NCBI RefSeq assembly: GCF_009711975.1
Contig: NZ_VIKW01000009.1
Span: 199,781 to 263,780, forward strand
Length of the DNA stretch: 64,000 bases
Direction of reading: 5' to 3'
Origin: Anabaena sp. UHCC 0204
GTDB taxonomy: Bacteria; Cyanobacteriota; Cyanobacteriia; Cyanobacteriales; Nostocaceae
The position numbers and the translations under genes are program-made. The first letter of the stretch is position 1; each line of letters opens with the position of its first letter. Below the pieces are notes generated by a model. That model was not told where the DNA came from, ran no database searches, and saw nothing but the letters and a program-made list of their open reading frames with translations. This document shows, one piece after another, positions 41,838 to 50,015 of this stretch.

Positions 41838-42368
41838 TTAATTACTAAAAGTGGTAGTTTCTGAAGTAACCTCTGCCGCTTGAGAACTAATAGGAATATG
41901 GACAATTTGCACAGAACAAGGTGCATGATGTAAAACATAGTTACTCACACTACCGAGAAAGAATTCCGCCAGCCCAGAACGTCCTCGTCGTCCAATAATG
42001 ATTAAATCAGCATTCCAAACGGTTGCTAATTCACAAATCTTCCGTCCTGGGCTACCAGTATTTTGAGTAAATTCCGTATTAATGCCAGATGTATTCGCTT
42101 GGGCGCTAAATGACTGTAACATCTGCAAACTTTCTTTTTTGAATTTGTCCCAATGCTCTTGGTACAATTTAAACGTTTGCTCATTCCAGCCAGGATAGTA
42201 ATCAATATTGGGGTAAATCAGTGCGTCAGGACTACCCTCTTCTTCTTGTGATAAAACGTGCAGTAACATTAAGTTTGCGGATGTTAACTTTGCTAAAGTT
42301 ACGCCTTGTTTAAAAACTTCTCTGCTTAGTTCTGAGCGATCTAACGCCACTAAAATTTTATTAAACAT
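41838..42368 (-). CDS. universal stress protein (UspA family)
   Basis: 176 residues. FNKILVALDRSELSREVFKQ at the start and the ATP-binding loop IIIGRRGRSGLAEFFLGSVS with NYVLHHAPCSVQIV are the standard Usp motifs, ATP-binding type (G-2x-G-9x-G-S). The central region is longer than usual (YPGWNEQTFKLYQEHWDKFK). It follows the kdpD gene on the same strand with a 194-nt gap. Confidence 0.9.
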   Translation of the reverse strand: MFNKILVALDRSELSREVFKQGVTLAKLTSANLMLLHVLSQEEEGSPDALIYPNIDYYPGWNEQTFKLYQEHWDKFKKESLQMLQSFSAQANTSGINTEFTQNTGSPGRKICELATVWNADLIIIGRRGRSGLAEFFLGSVSNYVLHHAPCSVQIVHIPISSQAAEVTSETTTFSN

Positions 42369-42562: not shown

Positions 42563-43675
42563 TTATTTTTCAGTAGCAATAATGTGTAAATCTATTTTTT
42601 TATCTCTAATTAGCTCCAGTAATCGTTGGGTAAAAGAGCTTTTCAACAATATTTTCCATCGTGGCTGTTGACTTTCACCGATAACTATTTGGGTGATATG
42701 ATGAGTTGTTGCAACTTGGGAAATTGCTTGAGGAACATTGTTACTTTTCACCTGGATAAATTCACCACCAAATTCTTGACAGAGTTTTTCACAAGTATGA
42801 ATATGCAAACTTTCTTCTTTACTAAGAAACCGTTCAGGATCTGCAATAAATACAGTATAAAACTTAGCATTCATAGAATTGGCAAGTCGCGCCCCACGCC
42901 GTAATAATTGAATTGAATTAGGATAAGTAGATACACACACTAAAACTCGTTCATGAATATTGCAAATTTGTTCAGGAGAGATAGAAGTATTTGCCTCTTC
43001 TTCAACAGTATCTGCAACTTCTCTTAACGCCAATTCTCGCAAAGCAATCAAATTACGCCGCTGAAAAAAGTTTTTTAGAGATTGCTCAATATTATTAGCG
43101 GCATAAATTTTTCCCTCCCGTAAACGTTCTTCTAAGGTTTCAGGAGTCACATCAATTACAACCACAGCGTCAGCTTCATCTAAGAGAATATCGGGAATAC
43201 ATTCCCGCACCACAATACCCGTAATTGCTGCGACTACATCATTCAAACTTTCCAAATGTTGAATATTAACAGTAGAGTAAACATCAATCTCTGCTGCTAA
43301 CATTAATTCTACATCCTGATAGCGTTTTTCCCGATGTGAACCAGGTACATTTGTATGAGCTAATTCATCAACTAAAACCAGTTGGGGAGAACGATTTAAA
43401 ATTGCCTCGGTGTCCATTTCTTCGAGGTTGATATTCTTGTAAAGAATAGTTTTTTTAGGAATTACCTCCAATCCTATAGCTTTTATAGCCGTGTCTTTGC
43501 GTCCATGAGTTTCTAAAAAGCCAATGACAACATCAATACCTTCTTGTTTAAGTTGATGTGCTTCCTCCAACATTTTATAAGTTTTCCCCACACCAGGAGC
43601 CATACCAATAAATATTTTATGTTTTCCGCGTTTGGCTGTGCGGATATAAGAATTATCGGGGGTCTTGGGTTTCAT
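42563..43675 (-). CDS. kdpD: KdpD N-terminal (sensor/Usp) protein without kinase
   Basis: 370 residues from the ATG at 43675; a TTG two codons upstream (43681) is also in frame. The KdpD domain has RGKHKIFIGMAPGVGKTYKM (Walker A) and LVLVDELAHTNVPGSHREKR (Walker B). A Usp-like domain covers about residues 245-370 (ERVLVCVSTYPNSIQLLRRG; QIVIGESQQPRWKILL). Like other cyanobacterial KdpD proteins it ends there, without membrane helices or histidine kinase. No kdpABC genes are in the window. The start codon and ribosome site lie within the last, degenerate CRISPR repeat (43669-43704): a 1-nt deletion turns the repeat end ATTGAAAC into ATGAAAC. The transcript may therefore be the CRISPR precursor itself. 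Confidence 0.9.
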   Translation of the reverse strand: MKPKTPDNSYIRTAKRGKHKIFIGMAPGVGKTYKMLEEAHQLKQEGIDVVIGFLETHGRKDTAIKAIGLEVIPKKTILYKNINLEEMDTEAILNRSPQLVLVDELAHTNVPGSHREKRYQDVELMLAAEIDVYSTVNIQHLESLNDVVAAITGIVVRECIPDILLDEADAVVVIDVTPETLEERLREGKIYAANNIEQSLKNFFQRRNLIALRELALREVADTVEEEANTSISPEQICNIHERVLVCVSTYPNSIQLLRRGARLANSMNAKFYTVFIADPERFLSKEESLHIHTCEKLCQEFGGEFIQVKSNNVPQAISQVATTHHITQIVIGESQQPRWKILLKSSFTQRLLELIRDKKIDLHIIATEK

Positions 43676-44436
43676 CCTCAATCACCTTTGTTGGTAACTG
43701 TCACATTATTTACATTAGTAATTGCATTAGTTTGATTTTTGTTTCAATCCTCAATCACCTTTGTTGGTAATTGTCACTTCACGCTGAAGACTAAAGGTAT
43801 CAAATATAAGTTACCTGTTTCAATCCTCAATCACCTTTGTTGGTAATTGTCACCTGATTTCTTCTTGTAAATCACCTAGACCCGACGTGTTTCAATCCTC
43901 AATCACCTTTGTTGGTAATTGTCACCGCACTTATAGATATGGCGTATTTATTAGGACGATCGTTAAGTTTCAATCCTCAATCACCTTTGTTGGTAATTGT
44001 CACCAGCTGATGAATCTGTATACAGTTGCTTTTATTACTCATGTTTCAATCCTCAATCACCTTTGTTGGTAATTGTCACCTCCCTAGATAATTCGCGGCG
44101 TTGAGTTTCAATGTTTCAATCCTCAATCACCTTTGTTGGTAATTGTCACTTGTAGCTTATAATGCTTAGTTAAGTAGTTCTAATTGTTTCAATCCTCAAT
44201 CACCTTTGTTGGTAATTGTCACCTTCCGTATATCGTCCGTCATCTTCAGTAATTGTTTCAATCCTCAATCACCTTTGTTGGTAATTGTCACGATCCCGTT
44301 CTCAAAGAACTTAATAAAGCCGCGAAGGTTTCAATCCTCAATCACCTTTGTTGGTAATTGTCACACTAAAGTGTTGAGTGGCGATCGCCGTATCACCATG
44401 TTTCAATCCTCAATCACCTTTGTTGGTAATTGTCAC
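43669..44436 (-). CRISPR. type I-C CRISPR array, 11 repeats, 10 spacers
   Basis: The 37-nt repeat on the minus strand begins GTGACAATTACCAACAAAGG and ends GATTGAGGATTGAAAC. Its stem CAATTACC/GGTGATTG with loop AACAAA fits Cas5c processing, and the 3' ATTGAAAC gives the usual 5' handle. Repeats (+ coordinates) start at 43669 (36 nt, degenerate), 43741, 43817, 43889, 43967, 44043, 44113, 44186, 44255, 44328 and 44400. Spacers are 32-41 nt. Repeats are otherwise identical. The degenerate repeat at the low-coordinate end marks the leader-distal side, so transcription runs leftward from the leader at 44437-44664. Confidence 0.97.
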
Positions 44437-44664
44437 TGCTGACCTCTCAAACCCTTGGAAATAAAGGATTTCCAGACAGATTTGCGCGAGCCACCCCATA
44501 ATACCCCATTCCAGCCGACAGCACAAGAGCAAAAAACGCTGAAACCCTTACAGTGCAAGGTGCGCGAGGGTATACGATCGCCCATAACCTGAAATCCAGA
44601 TAGTGCAAGAGTTTCCAGCTTAGTCATAGTCACTTCGATTTAACACCCACCCCCTCGCGCATTT
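44437..44664 (-). promoter_or_regulatory. CRISPR leader
   Basis: 228 nt between the cas7 stop and the first repeat. It contains two similar 22-nt motifs of the form CTGAAA(T/C)CC...AGTGCAAG (+ strand 44538-44560 and 44588-44610, 50 nt apart) and three TGCGCGAG/CTCGCGCA words. TATTAT near 44500 on the minus strand is a possible -10. These could be integration or regulatory sites. Confidence 0.65.
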
Positions 44665-45549
44665 TTAAGCCAACCTTGTCAAAGTTACACCATCAGGTAG
44701 TTTCAATTCATCATCAAACACCACTTGATAATCAGCAAAACTGCGGGGTACATTCACAGTAGATTCTATTTTTAGTTTATCAAACAACTCATGCACAGGA
44801 GCATTACCATATTTACTGGCATGACTAAAAACATACAAACCACGACAAGCCATAAAACCCCGTGCAGAAGAACGGTCAAATTCCCAAGCCTTCATTAAAG
44901 CTTGCCAAAACAATTCTAAATCACGTTCAGACACACAACCAGATTTTTCCGCCAAATGGGGATTATAAAACACATGAGATTTATACAAACCATAGGGTAA
45001 AACCTCCTTTCTCCCCATAGTTTTATTATCCTTTTTAGTACCATCTTTTTTAGCCGTTTCCTCAGTTGCAGCACAACGAGTAATACTCACAGATTGAGGA
45101 AAAACAGGATCAATACTGCGAGAAAAACTAATTTGCATGGGTCCCCAAACTTGACCAGCTTTTAAACCAGTAGAAAGCACAGCCCCAAACATTCTTAAAT
45201 CATAAAAATTTTGCTGCATCCATTTTGCAACCTCTAATTGTTGTTCTGGTGTTCCTTCTTTTTGTGGTAAACCTACAGCAGTATAAGCGCGACTGATTTT
45301 TTCATTTAAAACACTTCCTTCCTCCACAAATATTTTATATTTTTCTGGTGTAGATTCATCTTTTCCAACCATCTCTACATAGTTTCTCACCTTGCGTTTT
45401 AAACAAGCATCAGTCACCAAACCTTGATTAGTTTGGGGGTCAACTCGCGGTTGATTTCCGGCATCTGGATCACCATTGGGATTACCATCAAGACAATCAA
45501 ATAATAAAATTGCATCGTGTTTTTTTGTAGGGTCTAAATGTACAGTCAT
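44665..45549 (-). CDS. cas7c: Cascade backbone protein Cas7 (Csd2, type I-C)
   Basis: 294 residues. LLFDCLDGNPNGDPDAGNQP and VDPQTNQGLVTDACLKRKVR are hallmark Csd2/Cas7 blocks; DLRMFGAVLSTGLKAGQVWG and MQISFSRSIDPVFPQSVSIT follow. It coats the crRNA in the type I-C effector. It is the last gene of cas5c-cas8c-cas7, immediately before the leader; cas4-cas1-cas2, which usually follow, are absent. Confidence 0.95.
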   Translation of the reverse strand: MTVHLDPTKKHDAILLFDCLDGNPNGDPDAGNQPRVDPQTNQGLVTDACLKRKVRNYVEMVGKDESTPEKYKIFVEEGSVLNEKISRAYTAVGLPQKEGTPEQQLEVAKWMQQNFYDLRMFGAVLSTGLKAGQVWGPMQISFSRSIDPVFPQSVSITRCAATEETAKKDGTKKDNKTMGRKEVLPYGLYKSHVFYNPHLAEKSGCVSERDLELFWQALMKAWEFDRSSARGFMACRGLYVFSHASKYGNAPVHELFDKLKIESTVNVPRSFADYQVVFDDELKLPDGVTLTRLA

Positions 45550-45667: not shown

Positions 45668-47302
45668 CTATTCATCTACTTCATCTACTGTTTTAGTAAA
45701 ATACTCAGCCCGTTGTTGCCACCAACCTTGAAAAAACAAAGCTTGAGATTTTAAATCTAGAACTTCTGGTAGTTCAGAAATATTAAACTTCTCAAATTCT
45801 CTTGTGAGTAATTTTTTAGTTTTTATCTTTCCTCCTGCTTCTAAATGATAATGAGTACAACCATGACAAAGCCTAGCAAACACCTGAGTAGGAGTAGAAG
45901 ATAAAGCCTTGAGACTACGCATGACATTAGTATTATCTTCACTCATCTTTTGAGCATCAATTTGGGCTTGGTGCATTAAAAAGGCAATTCTTCCCAAAAT
46001 ATAAGCATTGTCTAAAACTTTTTGGTCTGTGTTCATATTGTCTCTATTTGTCGCTAAATAAACTGCTAAACCTTGAAATCTAGGACGAGTAAAAGATTTT
46101 TCACTACATATCCTATCAATGATTCTGTAAGCATATTCATCAGGTAAACTTTCACCCAAAAAAGCAGCCTTAACTAATGCAGTTGCTATCCTATCAGTGT
46201 GTTCTTTAGCAGCATTCAAAAAAGCAGTATTGCACAACATCCAAATAGGACTAGGTGATAAATCATTAACTTGCTGACATTCTACAAACTGCCCAATAGA
46301 ATCTTTGATTTTTTGGGTAGTAACTTCACTCCAACCACTAACGGAAATTCTGCCTTTATTGCCTTTGAGAATCGCTAGATAAAACTTACTAGATTTGAGA
46401 TCTTCTAAGTTAAACCTTTTAGGACTATGGGGACTAGCAAAAATAGATTCAAAAGCCAGATTTTCCCAGATTTCAGGATTAATACCTTCCCCTTCTTCCT
46501 CACCCCAATAGACAAAAACCTGTTCTCCTAATTTATAGCGGTTGGTGTTACTATTCAATAAAAAATCTAAAGCCTTATGAAATCTGACAGCACTTGTAAA
46601 ACCAATGGGAGCATTAATATTTCCATCCCAGCCATGAGACTGATAAGCAGCTTTATCAAAACTACTAATAGCAGCCCCAGAAGTAGAAGAACCAGGAACA
46701 CCTTTAACCATCATCGGCATTTTCCGCCCCATTGTAGGAGTCTTTTCACCTGTTAATAAACAAACACCATCAACGGTATCTTGTTTACTAGCATAATAAT
46801 TAGACCACCATTTTTGCATTGCGGGAATTTTGGTAATTTGCTTACCATTAAACATGAATACAAATCTATCCCGACACCAATCTATATTTGCTGCTGGTGG
46901 ATAAGCTGCGGTTAACTCTGGTGTGATTTTCTCCACAGTTGTATTAGTGATAAAATCATAAACCGCTTTTACCGCTTCATGGTTAGTTTCTTGTAAACAT
47001 CTTTCTAGAAGTTGTAAATAAAGTTGATGACGTTTTGCACCTCTATCTCCAGCACCAAAAACATATTCTCCCCCATCATCAATTAATAATGTTTCATCAC
47101 CATTCCGCCGTAAATCTGGAACTAATATTTTTTTACCAAATTTAGGTTTACCCTTATCACCTTTTGGGGGTGTTTCCAAAACACTAAAACTCTCTAAAGG
47201 TAAATTAATTTGCCAATGACAAACACATTCACCAAAACCAATTGGCGTGAGTTTATTATCCTGTTCTAAAGCATTTCCTAGTTGATTTAATTCTCGTAAC
47301 AT
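45668..47302 (-). CDS. cas8c: Cascade large subunit Cas8c (Csd1)
   Basis: 544 residues. Csd1 features: ELNQLGNALEQDNKLTPIGF near the start, FVMFNGKQITKIPAMQKWWS and YYASKQDTVDGVCLLTGEKT in the middle, GFTSAVRFHKALDFLLNS and VYWGEEEGEGINPEIWENLA later, and C-terminal HQAQIDAQKMSEDNTNVMRS. It recognises the PAM and recruits Cas3; in type I-C a small subunit is often made from an internal start (not visible here). It overlaps cas5c by 16 nt. Confidence 0.92.
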   Translation of the reverse strand: MLRELNQLGNALEQDNKLTPIGFGECVCHWQINLPLESFSVLETPPKGDKGKPKFGKKILVPDLRRNGDETLLIDDGGEYVFGAGDRGAKRHQLYLQLLERCLQETNHEAVKAVYDFITNTTVEKITPELTAAYPPAANIDWCRDRFVFMFNGKQITKIPAMQKWWSNYYASKQDTVDGVCLLTGEKTPTMGRKMPMMVKGVPGSSTSGAAISSFDKAAYQSHGWDGNINAPIGFTSAVRFHKALDFLLNSNTNRYKLGEQVFVYWGEEEGEGINPEIWENLAFESIFASPHSPKRFNLEDLKSSKFYLAILKGNKGRISVSGWSEVTTQKIKDSIGQFVECQQVNDLSPSPIWMLCNTAFLNAAKEHTDRIATALVKAAFLGESLPDEYAYRIIDRICSEKSFTRPRFQGLAVYLATNRDNMNTDQKVLDNAYILGRIAFLMHQAQIDAQKMSEDNTNVMRSLKALSSTPTQVFARLCHGCTHYHLEAGGKIKTKKLLTREFEKFNISELPEVLDLKSQALFFQGWWQQRAEYFTKTVDEVDE

Positions 47303-47952
47303 ACTCGCCCATCTCTCATGATAAAGTGAGCAAATTCTGTAACCACATTACCCTTAACAAAACCTTCAGAAGTCTGCCAAGAAACAGCCCCTTTTTTATC
47401 AGGAATAAAGTGCATTTGTTTAGGCATTAATCCTAAATCTAATTCCCCTTTTAACTCCGGTGCGGGTTTATCTTCTGCGGAGGGAAAACCAAAATAGGCT
47501 ATATATTCTCGACAGCCAAAATATGGCTGCTTAAAACATTGTCCTTTTTCAATTCTGCGTTTTATTTGGGCTGCATATTTATTAGATAAATCTTCCTCAG
47601 TCTGTAAATCAAAGTTGAAATCAACGATATAAGCAACATCACGTAATATGACATGATTTCTTTGAGCGCGATCGCTCACAGCCGTGTATCCACCTATACC
47701 ATCATTCTTCATCCATTTTTTAGCATTTCCATAGATTTGTTTGGACTGCACCATGTTACGGTGTATAGTGAATGTACTAATTGGATTTAATACCGTAATA
47801 TAATTAATCTTGTACTTAATCTCTGGTTTCCAGAAAATAGACTCCAGTACACCAACAGCCGCAGTAAAGGGCATTACCTGGTAACTGTGCGGTTCAGCTT
47901 TAAATTCTGGTCTTGTAAATAATGCCCACTCACCCCATATTTTTAACTGCAT
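47287..47952 (-). CDS. cas5c: crRNA-processing nuclease Cas5c (Csd5/Cas5d)
   Basis: 221 residues. The Cas5 N-terminus LKIWGEWALFTRPEFKAEPH and SYQVMPFTAAVGVLESIFWK is clear; FTIHRNMVQSKQIYG follows, and CREYIAYFGFPSAEDKPAPE is near the end. In type I-C it replaces Cas6 and cuts the repeat hairpin. First gene of the leftward effector operon; 38 nt separate it from the divergent cas3. Confidence 0.93.
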   Translation of the reverse strand: MQLKIWGEWALFTRPEFKAEPHSYQVMPFTAAVGVLESIFWKPEIKYKINYITVLNPISTFTIHRNMVQSKQIYGNAKKWMKNDGIGGYTAVSDRAQRNHVILRDVAYIVDFNFDLQTEEDLSNKYAAQIKRRIEKGQCFKQPYFGCREYIAYFGFPSAEDKPAPELKGELDLGLMPKQMHFIPDKKGAVSWQTSEGFVKGNVVTEFAHFIMRDGRVCYEN

Positions 47953-47990: not shown

Positions 47991-50015
47991 ATGAACTACT
48001 TAGCAAGAATTACTCCTGATAAATGCGAACAACTACTAGCAGAACATTTACACAATGTGGCTGAAATGTCTGCAAGTGCTGTACCCCAAGAATTTCAAGC
48101 TGTAGCCAGATATGCAGGTTTATGGCATGACTTGGGTAAATATCAGCACAAATGGCAGGAATATCTCAAAAATAACGGTAAACGAGTTGTACACTCTCCA
48201 CATGGTGCAGTTTTAGCGTTACAAATGGCAAAAAAAGAACCTCCAGCAATGGCTTATATTATTGCTGGCCATCATTCTTGTCTATCTGAACGGTTAAGAA
48301 TTAGAGGAAATGAATATAAACAATTAGCAGCAGGTTTAGAAGAATGTTTGGAAAATGCTCAACAAGAAATTGCTGATTTTATACCTGAACAATTACCAGA
48401 TATTAATTTACCTAAATTACGCCGAGAATTTGCTATTAGAATGTTATTTTCTGTCTTAGTTGATAGTGATAGATTAGACGCTCAAAGATTTGAAAATTCT
48501 CTAAAACAAGAAGATTTTACATATACTTGGAATCATGATTTAAATTTATCAAATTCACAAAATACAATTAGTATAGCTAGAAAAATTTTTGCTCAACATT
48601 GTACCAACAAAAGTGAATTACCAAAAGGAATTTTTAGATTAACTGGACCTTGTGGAATTGGTAAAACCATTGCTAGTGCTAATTTTGCTTATTTACACAG
48701 TCAAAAAAATCAAATGTCCGGTATAGTTTACGTAGGACCCCTAAAAAGCATCATTGAACAAACAGCAGATGTTTATCGGCAATTATTTGGAGAAACAGCA
48801 GTATTAGAACATCATTCAGGATATGAACCAGAATTAGCAGAAGTTAAAGAATATAAATTAAATACAGAAAGATGGGATAAACCCGTAATTGTCACCAGTG
48901 GAGTACAGTTTTATGAAAGTTTATTTGCTAATCGTCCTACAAAATGCCGTAAATTACAAGGTTTAATCAATAAAGTTATTTTATTAGATGAATCTCAATC
49001 TATTCCAGCTAATTTAGTCCGGCCAATATTAAATATATTAAATACCTTAGTTACAGATTGGGGATGTACAATAGTATTGATGAGTGCTACACAACCAGCT
49101 TTTCATAACCTTGATGATGATTTAATTAATGTTGTTGATATTATTCCCGAAGATGAAACTACGAGATTATTTCAACAACTTAACCGTGTTGATTATCAAT
49201 ACATTTTAGATATTTGGGAATGGGAAAATATAGTTTCTAGTATTCAAGAATCTGGATTAAATCAAGGTTTAATTATTGTCAATACTACAAAACTAGCTGG
49301 AGAAGGATATCAAATACTATCGGAAAAATTTCCAGAAAAATGCTTTCATCTTAGTTCCCGAATGTGTCCTGCTCATCGTTCCCAAATTCTTACCAAAGTG
49401 CGACAATTATTAAAAGATGAAAAACCCTGTTTTTTAATTAGCACTCAAGTTATAGAAGCTGGTGTTGATGTGGATTTTCCCATAGTTTATCGTCAACTTG
49501 CACCTTTAGATTCTATCATTCAAGCAGCGGGAAGATGTAACCGAGAAGGTAAACAAGACAAAGGTAATGTAATTATTTTTAATATGTCATCTTCCAACCC
49601 ACCCGGATATATTTACCGGACTAATTTAACTAAAAAGATATTAGCAAAATATGACTTAAACGGTGATATATTACCTATTATTCAAATGTATTTTAGTAGT
49701 TTATTCAATCAGAATCATGATGGTGGTGTAGATATTCAAAAACTAAGAGAAAGTTATGATTTTCCTGAAGTTGCTAAATCAGTGAAAGTGATTGATGATG
49801 AACATCAAACATCTGTAGTTGTCAAATGGGGAGATAGTGAAAAATTAATTGCCCAAATGCAAAATCAAGAATATTTAACAGAATTAGATTGGCGAAAATT
49901 ACAACAATTTACCGTAAATATTCCTAAAAATGATAAATTTACCAATTATACCCAAATCGGAAAAATTGATGTTTGGATAGGAGATTATGATCAAAAAATA
50001 GGAATTATGGAATGA
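47991..50015 (+). CDS. cas3: Cas3 helicase-nuclease (type I-C)
   Basis: 674 residues. The N-terminal HD nuclease has HLHNVAEM, WHDLGKYQ, HSPHGAVL and AGHHS as metal ligands. The SF2 helicase has Walker A LTGPCGIGKTIASANFA, VILLDESQSIPANL (DExx box), VLMSATQPAF (motif III) and LISTQVIEAGVDVDFPI with QAAGRCNREGK (motifs V and VI). It unwinds and degrades target DNA after Cascade binding. It is on the opposite strand to the other cas genes, an uncommon layout for type I-C, where cas3 normally leads the same operon. Confidence 0.94.
   Translation: MNYLARITPDKCEQLLAEHLHNVAEMSASAVPQEFQAVARYAGLWHDLGKYQHKWQEYLKNNGKRVVHSPHGAVLALQMAKKEPPAMAYIIAGHHSCLSERLRIRGNEYKQLAAGLEECLENAQQEIADFIPEQLPDINLPKLRREFAIRMLFSVLVDSDRLDAQRFENSLKQEDFTYTWNHDLNLSNSQNTISIARKIFAQHCTNKSELPKGIFRLTGPCGIGKTIASANFAYLHSQKNQMSGIVYVGPLKSIIEQTADVYRQLFGETAVLEHHSGYEPELAEVKEYKLNTERWDKPVIVTSGVQFYESLFANRPTKCRKLQGLINKVILLDESQSIPANLVRPILNILNTLVTDWGCTIVLMSATQPAFHNLDDDLINVVDIIPEDETTRLFQQLNRVDYQYILDIWEWENIVSSIQESGLNQGLIIVNTTKLAGEGYQILSEKFPEKCFHLSSRMCPAHRSQILTKVRQLLKDEKPCFLISTQVIEAGVDVDFPIVYRQLAPLDSIIQAAGRCNREGKQDKGNVIIFNMSSSNPPGYIYRTNLTKKILAKYDLNGDILPIIQMYFSSLFNQNHDGGVDIQKLRESYDFPEVAKSVKVIDDEHQTSVVVKWGDSEKLIAQMQNQEYLTELDWRKLQQFTVNIPKNDKFTNYTQIGKIDVWIGDYDQKIGIME

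Follow-up and report, generated by a model that had tools for sequence, protein, structure and literature searches.

In the cyanobacterium Anabaena sp. UHCC 0204 (G000; 5.74 Mb, 83 contigs, 99.99% complete), the last repeat of a type I-C array of clustered regularly interspaced short palindromic repeats (CRISPR) runs without a gap into the reading frame of a short kdpD gene, a fusion to a housekeeping gene that sets this array end apart from type I-C systems. Strong sequence support exists for placing the start codon of kdpD inside this terminal, leader-distal repeat, and array transcripts are probably the source of kdpD expression, the terminal repeat acting as its initiation region. The window, i.e., the whole 64,000-nt stretch analyzed, lies on contig 83, and coordinates refer to it unless another locus is named. 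Its minus strand carries, in this order, cas5, cas8c, cas7, the leader, the 11-repeat array, the short kdpD, usp, and hoxE/hoxF, with cas3 divergent.

A pattern covering nt 1-31 of the repeat matched at 11 places in the window, all on the minus strand, and at none in 100 shuffles. Ten of the 11 repeats, which together with their spacers occupy 43705..44436, are identical 37-mers (GTGACAATTACCAACAAAGGTGATTGAGGATTGAAAC). The terminal repeat (43669..43704, minus strand, 36 nt) reads GTGACAGTTACCAACAAAGGTGATTGAGGATGAAAC and departs from the other ten by an A7 to G exchange and the loss of one T. The sequence-only reading that preceded this analysis had described the leader-distal repeat as deviating from ten identical others by one T, whose loss makes an ATG in frame with kdpD, and this was confirmed by the sequence, the pattern search, and the reading frame; the A7 to G exchange was not mentioned there and is added here. 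A finished guide derived from kdpD sequence was ruled out, as no repeat occurs downstream of the terminal one within the window.

The ATG (43673..43675, minus strand), formed from ATTG by the loss of one T, is in frame with the kdpD open reading frame (ORF) ending at 42563. Scanning for ATG, GTG, and TTG from the upstream stop to the P-loop Met returned only this codon and an alternative in-frame TTG (43679..43681, minus strand), both within the terminal repeat. The full protein can be obtained only from TTG 43681 or ATG 43675, and a start further downstream was ruled out because the stretch from the repeat to the P-loop Met has none of the three codons. The unmutated repeat end ATTGAAAC itself offers an in-frame TTG, which the T loss converts to ATG; with the complete repeat end, GGATTGAAAC, a TTG would stand in frame, and kdpD probably started with TTG before the T was lost. 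That the missing T stems from faulty sequencing or assembly seems highly improbable: this exact junction is known from one genome, as an error might be, but TT is no long homopolymer, and with the T restored the frame opens from TTG and the fusion stands regardless.

It is also very unlikely that the ATG is the native start of kdpD, with the repeat cut at GAGGAT by a junction overlapping in AT and the AAAC match to the repeat due to chance. Native kdpD does start with ATG, and a two-base overlap at the end of a deletion is ordinary. However, AAA as second codon, accounted for here by the repeat, was seen in none of 103 other kdpD rows (drawn from two partly overlapping collections, the nearest upstream ATG being taken as the start), and this makes an old native start unlikely. 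Sequence alignable to native kdpD directly follows the full repeat end, and a complete repeat end is likewise fused to kdpD in Cuspidothrix issatschenkoi CHARLIE-1 (G039; L094, L131). The same ATG was not found in relatives that lack repeat homology, a pattern that the sequence-only reading had named as one that would refute it; the array-free relatives use another ATG behind their own leader.

kdpD was matched in 76 of 100 genomes, and the best 30 loci were read. In four of these 30 an array lies against kdpD, namely in UHCC 0204, Dolichospermum sp. ST_sed8 (G002), Aphanizomenon flos-aquae FACHB-1287 (G005), and the Cuspidothrix genome, and one more, Dolichospermum FACHB-1091 (G015), holds a repeat remnant together with a native-like leader and no cas-gene match within 19 kb. 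Across 16 genomes of the genus, the array is present in three, the remnant in one, kdpC directly upstream in three (G009, G011, G013), and other upstream sequence in nine. In the named collection, with arrays detected through a 20-mer present three or more times, three of 80 kdpD loci adjoin an array end: G002, G005, and G039 again. The start codon falls within the repeat in two of the four array-adjoining loci, UHCC 0204 (370-aa frame) and Cuspidothrix (364-aa frame), while G002 and G005 keep their own ATG, 4 and 6 nt behind repeat sequence, respectively. The terminal repeat of Cuspidothrix keeps ATTGAAAC, its TTG is the only common start codon before the P-loop Met, and the junction lies deeper in kdpD than that of UHCC 0204. 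A single origin of both fusions was rejected on the grounds that junction end points and repeat types differ, although a shared first step may remain. The kdpD tree does not resolve the position of UHCC 0204, and a search for further species of the genus of G039 returned G039 alone.

What is probably the state before insertion is seen in a near-sister of G002. In G002 the order is kdpC, cas3, cas5 cas8c cas7, array, kdpD, usp, hoxE hoxF, which places the whole I-C locus between kdpC and kdpD. Its near-sister G011 has an empty site, where kdpC adjoins kdpD and GTAGGAAATTATTC precedes the kdpD ATG; from RGKHKIF onward the two kdpD genes differ with dN 0 and dS 0.071 (nonsynonymous and synonymous substitutions per site). 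A decayed copy of the native kdpD leader persists in G002 on the kdpC side, ~6.5 kb from kdpD. About 5.7 kb of unrelated genes, with no match to these cas genes, separate kdpC and kdpD in another genome (G014; L132 4802-12259), and the kdpC-kdpD gap thus appears to have taken inserts more than once.

Fusions of this kind do not accompany the I-C system everywhere. A Cas8c match was obtained in 10 of 388 genomes, of which UHCC 0204 and G002 are the kdpD cases described above, and six with I-C loci at other sites were examined as controls (G045, G409, G048, and G055 of the same I-C family, G241 and G132 more distant; G354 and G315 were left out). The other-site loci rule out that the system always lies beside kdpD, and a comparable fusion occurs in 0 of the 6: frames opened by a start codon in the final three repeat ends reach 29 aa at most, and the next ORF is convergent to the array in G045, G409, G055, and G241. 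Directly after their last full repeat, G002 (L128), G045 (L170), and G409 (L171) carry a tandem partial repeat of 15 nt with the sequence ATTGAGGATTGAAAC or a close variant of it, which in G005 (L129) comes one repeat earlier; since it is common to arrays at different genome sites, this array end seems to be old. The I-C arrays of G045 (L170 8208-9050) and G409 (L171 7747-8565) lie beside a convergent gene that by eye resembles hypB (hydrogenase maturation), whereas the array at the kdp site lies near the hox hydrogenase genes.

The terminal repeat has kept its predicted secondary structure, an 8-bp stem with an AACAAA loop (43679..43700, minus strand) that forms a putative Cas5c site. The A7 to G exchange preserves the pair as G-U, and the fused stretch folds at -9.1 kcal/mol, as does a comparison stretch that is offset by a few bases from the repeat and holds the whole normal hairpin. 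Pairs were counted on 12 related repeats (nine array or solitary repeats and three terminal ones, the structure itself being drawn from one of these sequences): 99% of the cells are paired, five cells have changed on both sides, and the only unpaired cell belongs to the terminal repeat of G005. The covariation score was reached by 0 of 500 shuffles, and slid structures scored far worse. The tail after the stem measures 11 nt in the normal repeat and 10 nt in the terminal one. Upstream of the ATG by 9 nt lies AAAGG (43685..43689, minus strand), which the sequence-only reading had taken for a Shine-Dalgarno site at a fair distance; its position holds, but the site is not freely open, as its GG is paired in the hairpin. 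The fold prediction gives these last two bases an unpaired probability of 0.00, with the ATG partly free. Elsewhere, the lone repeat GTGACAATTACCTATTAAGGTGATTGAGGATTGAAAC lies between two small ORFs in two genomes, in L041 (G004:C1:3771387-3771423) and L044 (G014:C66:31762-31798), with no array in the stretch read, and may be a solitary repeat unit resembling RNA anti-CRISPRs or a relic.

The gene behind the repeat (42563..43675, minus strand, 370 aa) encodes a KdpD domain with a Walker A motif (PF02702, 320.4 bits, cut-off 26.1) followed by a marginal Usp domain (PF00582, 24.4 bits, cut-off 24), and no histidine kinase. It is therefore a short KdpD that lacks the histidine-kinase part and not a full-length sensor kinase, which corrects its earlier description as a potassium/stress sensor. 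The NF038185 model, "KdpD-like non-kinase potassium sensor," aligns over positions 4-372 of 373 with 431.8 bits, below the curated cut-off of 550. Short KdpD is described as a c-di-AMP (cyclic di-AMP)-controlled atypical serine kinase, the Cyanobacteriota being named as mainly short-form, and the KdpD domain of the Escherichia coli protein acts as a serine kinase, inactivating the Kdp pump by way of Ser162 of KdpB (PMC11018627). The UHCC 0204 product has the same domain order and a G-X5-GKT motif (GMAPGVGKT), and by analogy it is probably a serine-kinase off-switch of the Kdp pump. It differs from known short KdpD in that the 5' end of its gene is a CRISPR repeat. In relatives the short kdpD is often directly behind kdpC; here, the kdpABC-like genes are on contig 5 (L177 3041-7548) with no kdpD adjoining; they comprise genes for KdpC and for a KdpB-like protein bearing both TGES and DKTGT motifs, plus an ORF of KdpA size, KdpA and KdpB being named from size, motifs, and position.

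This displacement from the operon, with the kdpC-side partners not at the locus, is what might be expected if kdpD were decaying and the start codon in the repeat were meaningless. We consider decay scarcely credible, however, as the 370-aa frame is intact at a ratio of nonsynonymous to synonymous substitutions (dN/dS) of about 0.12, and the array-fused gene is the only full-length KdpD match in a genome where KdpB, the presumed target, is present; a second match is weak (25% over 117 residues). The sequences show purifying selection on kdpD in the past (dN/dS 0.109-0.125 for UHCC 0204 against four genomes and 0.092-0.110 for Cuspidothrix against three), although such values average over the past of the gene and may not reflect the time since the fusion, a point that belongs with the objections gathered below.

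From the junction, the position of the start codon, the predicted covarying hairpin, the empty site, and the second fusion, all of them legible in the genomes themselves, the following course may be proposed. A type I-C locus would have settled between kdpC and the short kdpD, oriented such that kdpD lay next to the leader-distal array end. Small junction deletions would then have removed kdpD's own leader and joined the kdpD frame to that of the terminal repeat, in UHCC 0204 and, by a different junction, in Cuspidothrix also at the cost of the native start codon; they are the simplest account, and the order of events is inferred. The repeat end ATTGAAAC would have supplied a TTG start, turned into ATG in UHCC 0204 by the loss of one T. 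The kdpD RNA would start from the CRISPR leader, or else within the cas operon or array, and be translated with the terminal repeat as initiation region.

That array and kdpD share a transcript appears quite likely. No minus-strand terminator-like site was found from the leader to kdpD, the sole one found lying within kdpD, and Rho was not found in the genome in a search whose control was positive in 9 of 14 genomes; with neither kind of stop seen between array and kdpD, read-through into the gene is expected. This lends part support to the sequence-only reading, which had proposed that transcription of the CRISPR RNA precursor can continue into kdpD. In the leader (44437..44664, minus strand), TGGAATGGGGTATTAT is conserved in five of five aligned leaders, and this region is taken as a candidate promoter, with TTGTGC-17-TATTAT (44498..44526, minus strand) picked out by eye. 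A less favored account, to which we give a clearly minor share of belief, treats kdpD as a passive neighbor of the array: the fusion would be a neutral deletion scar tolerated by a variable N-terminus, a chance promoter in an AT-rich spacer would drive kdpD, and leader and Cas5c would be irrelevant. Low conservation of the N-terminal tail across all relatives fits this account, and a promoter-like site (43830-43803, 9 of 12) lies within the array. Its promoter signal, however, is not better than chance, with 9 such sites found against 7.8 expected, and without a terminator-like site or Rho the array RNA should enter kdpD anyway.

Several observations nevertheless weigh against expression of kdpD from array transcripts through its terminal repeat. 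The leader promoter proposed here is absent from the list of a simple promoter scan, and the site at 43830-43803 could drive kdpD. Because the hairpin encloses the GG of AAAGG, initiation may be weak; Shine-Dalgarno sites are, moreover, often missing from cyanobacterial genes. The terminal hairpin of G005 has one broken pair, and its native ATG is kept. Cuspidothrix has truncated cas7 and cas3 genes and has lost the leader, so that kdpD is kept without a complete Cascade, a persistence of the fusion that also suits the passive account; 24 repeats (at most 4 mismatches) and the repeat-started kdpD remain there (L131 12282-18384), with no leader between cas7 and the array. The native kdpD leader has also been lost in array-free relatives, and its loss thus needs no CRISPR.

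If kdpD is translated from the terminal repeat, Cas5c may act on its mRNA. In type I-C systems, Cas5c processes the repeat and remains on the 5' handle (PMC7684278; PMC9638904). The 11-nt tail after the stem of the normal repeat agrees with such a handle; in the terminal repeat the would-be CRISPR RNA (crRNA) handle, by analogy with type I-C, is AGGATGAAAC (43669..43678, minus strand), predicted to appear in the kdpD mRNA as AGGAUGAAAC, and it includes the start codon. A Cas5c cut in the terminal repeat would strip AAAGG and leave 3 nt ahead of the AUG, and Cas5c bound to the handle would cover the AUG; by either route less KdpD would be predicted. With the hairpin preserved and the start codon in the handle, cutting or binding of the repeat by Cas5c should alter how much kdpD is translated, the likeliest outcome being a decrease. 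Control of kdpD by Cas5c is plausible, and an actual effect on kdpD can be entertained tentatively. Considerably more doubtful is a stronger form, in which the terminal repeat is a Cas5c-operated translation switch kept for coupling immune load to potassium uptake: free Cas5c would cut the hairpin and stay on the start-codon handle, shutting off the inhibitor of the Kdp pump, and kdpD would be made when Cas5c is occupied with pre-crRNA.

The remainder of the locus is that of a type I-C system, with its signature genes. All four effector genes adjoin the array, whose 37-nt repeats carry the ATTGAAAC end: PADLOC and NCBIfam identify cas7c (44665..45549), cas8c (45668..47302), and cas5c (47287..47952) on the minus strand and cas3 (47991..50015) on the plus strand. 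PADLOC names Cas7c (the top row being a Cas7b model for I-B and I-C, with Cas7c next at equal bits), Cas8c, Cas5c, and Cas3c; the NCBIfam scores are 300.5 for Cas7 (cut-off 182.25), 111.8 for Cas5c (85), and 210.1 for Cas8c, just below its 218.65. The genome's two cas1 matches are on contigs 17 and 82, none being at the locus, and the search covered neither cas2 nor cas4; loci with effector genes but no adaptation genes are known. Spacer 1 (44365..44399, minus strand), at the leader end, agrees at 33 of 35 positions with the portal gene of Aphanizomenon phage vB_AphaS-CL131, in keeping with a young leader end; no other array match came from the phage collection (1 record). The bases flanking this match are GTT and differ from the TTC that flanks the targets of other I-C systems, which settles nothing. 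Downstream of kdpD, the usp gene (41838..42368) is on the same strand.

Repeats used outside immunity, with a degenerate form kept, are a feature shared with the CreTA and ectopic-repeat modules (PMC8501985, PMC9458426); there the effector, guided by CreA RNA, represses a toxin, whereas here the repeat is part of an mRNA start. Solitary repeat units, or Racr RNA anti-CRISPRs, likewise give a repeat a role outside the array (PMC10651486), but the repeat described here is the end of a chromosomal array. An open-licence, abstract-level literature search found no case of a repeat as the start codon or ribosome site of a downstream gene, nor of kdpD beside an array. CRISPR repeats are known as guides, decoys, and regulatory RNAs, and here a repeat seems to have turned into the ribosome landing site and start codon of a housekeeping gene.

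Repeat-derived starts at two different junctions, together with an empty site in a near-sister, point to repeated fusion rather than a one-off event. ATTGAAA(C/G) forms the end of many type I and type III repeats, which makes an in-frame TTG available to any gene behind an array and would give arrays a general, checkable route for capturing downstream genes. In UHCC 0204, a single transcript with a single RNA-cutting site probably serves both a locus of immune memory and a housekeeping gene, and the fused repeat offers a simple place to ask whether Cas5c regulates an mRNA. Were the switch to exist, the load on the immune system would set potassium uptake.
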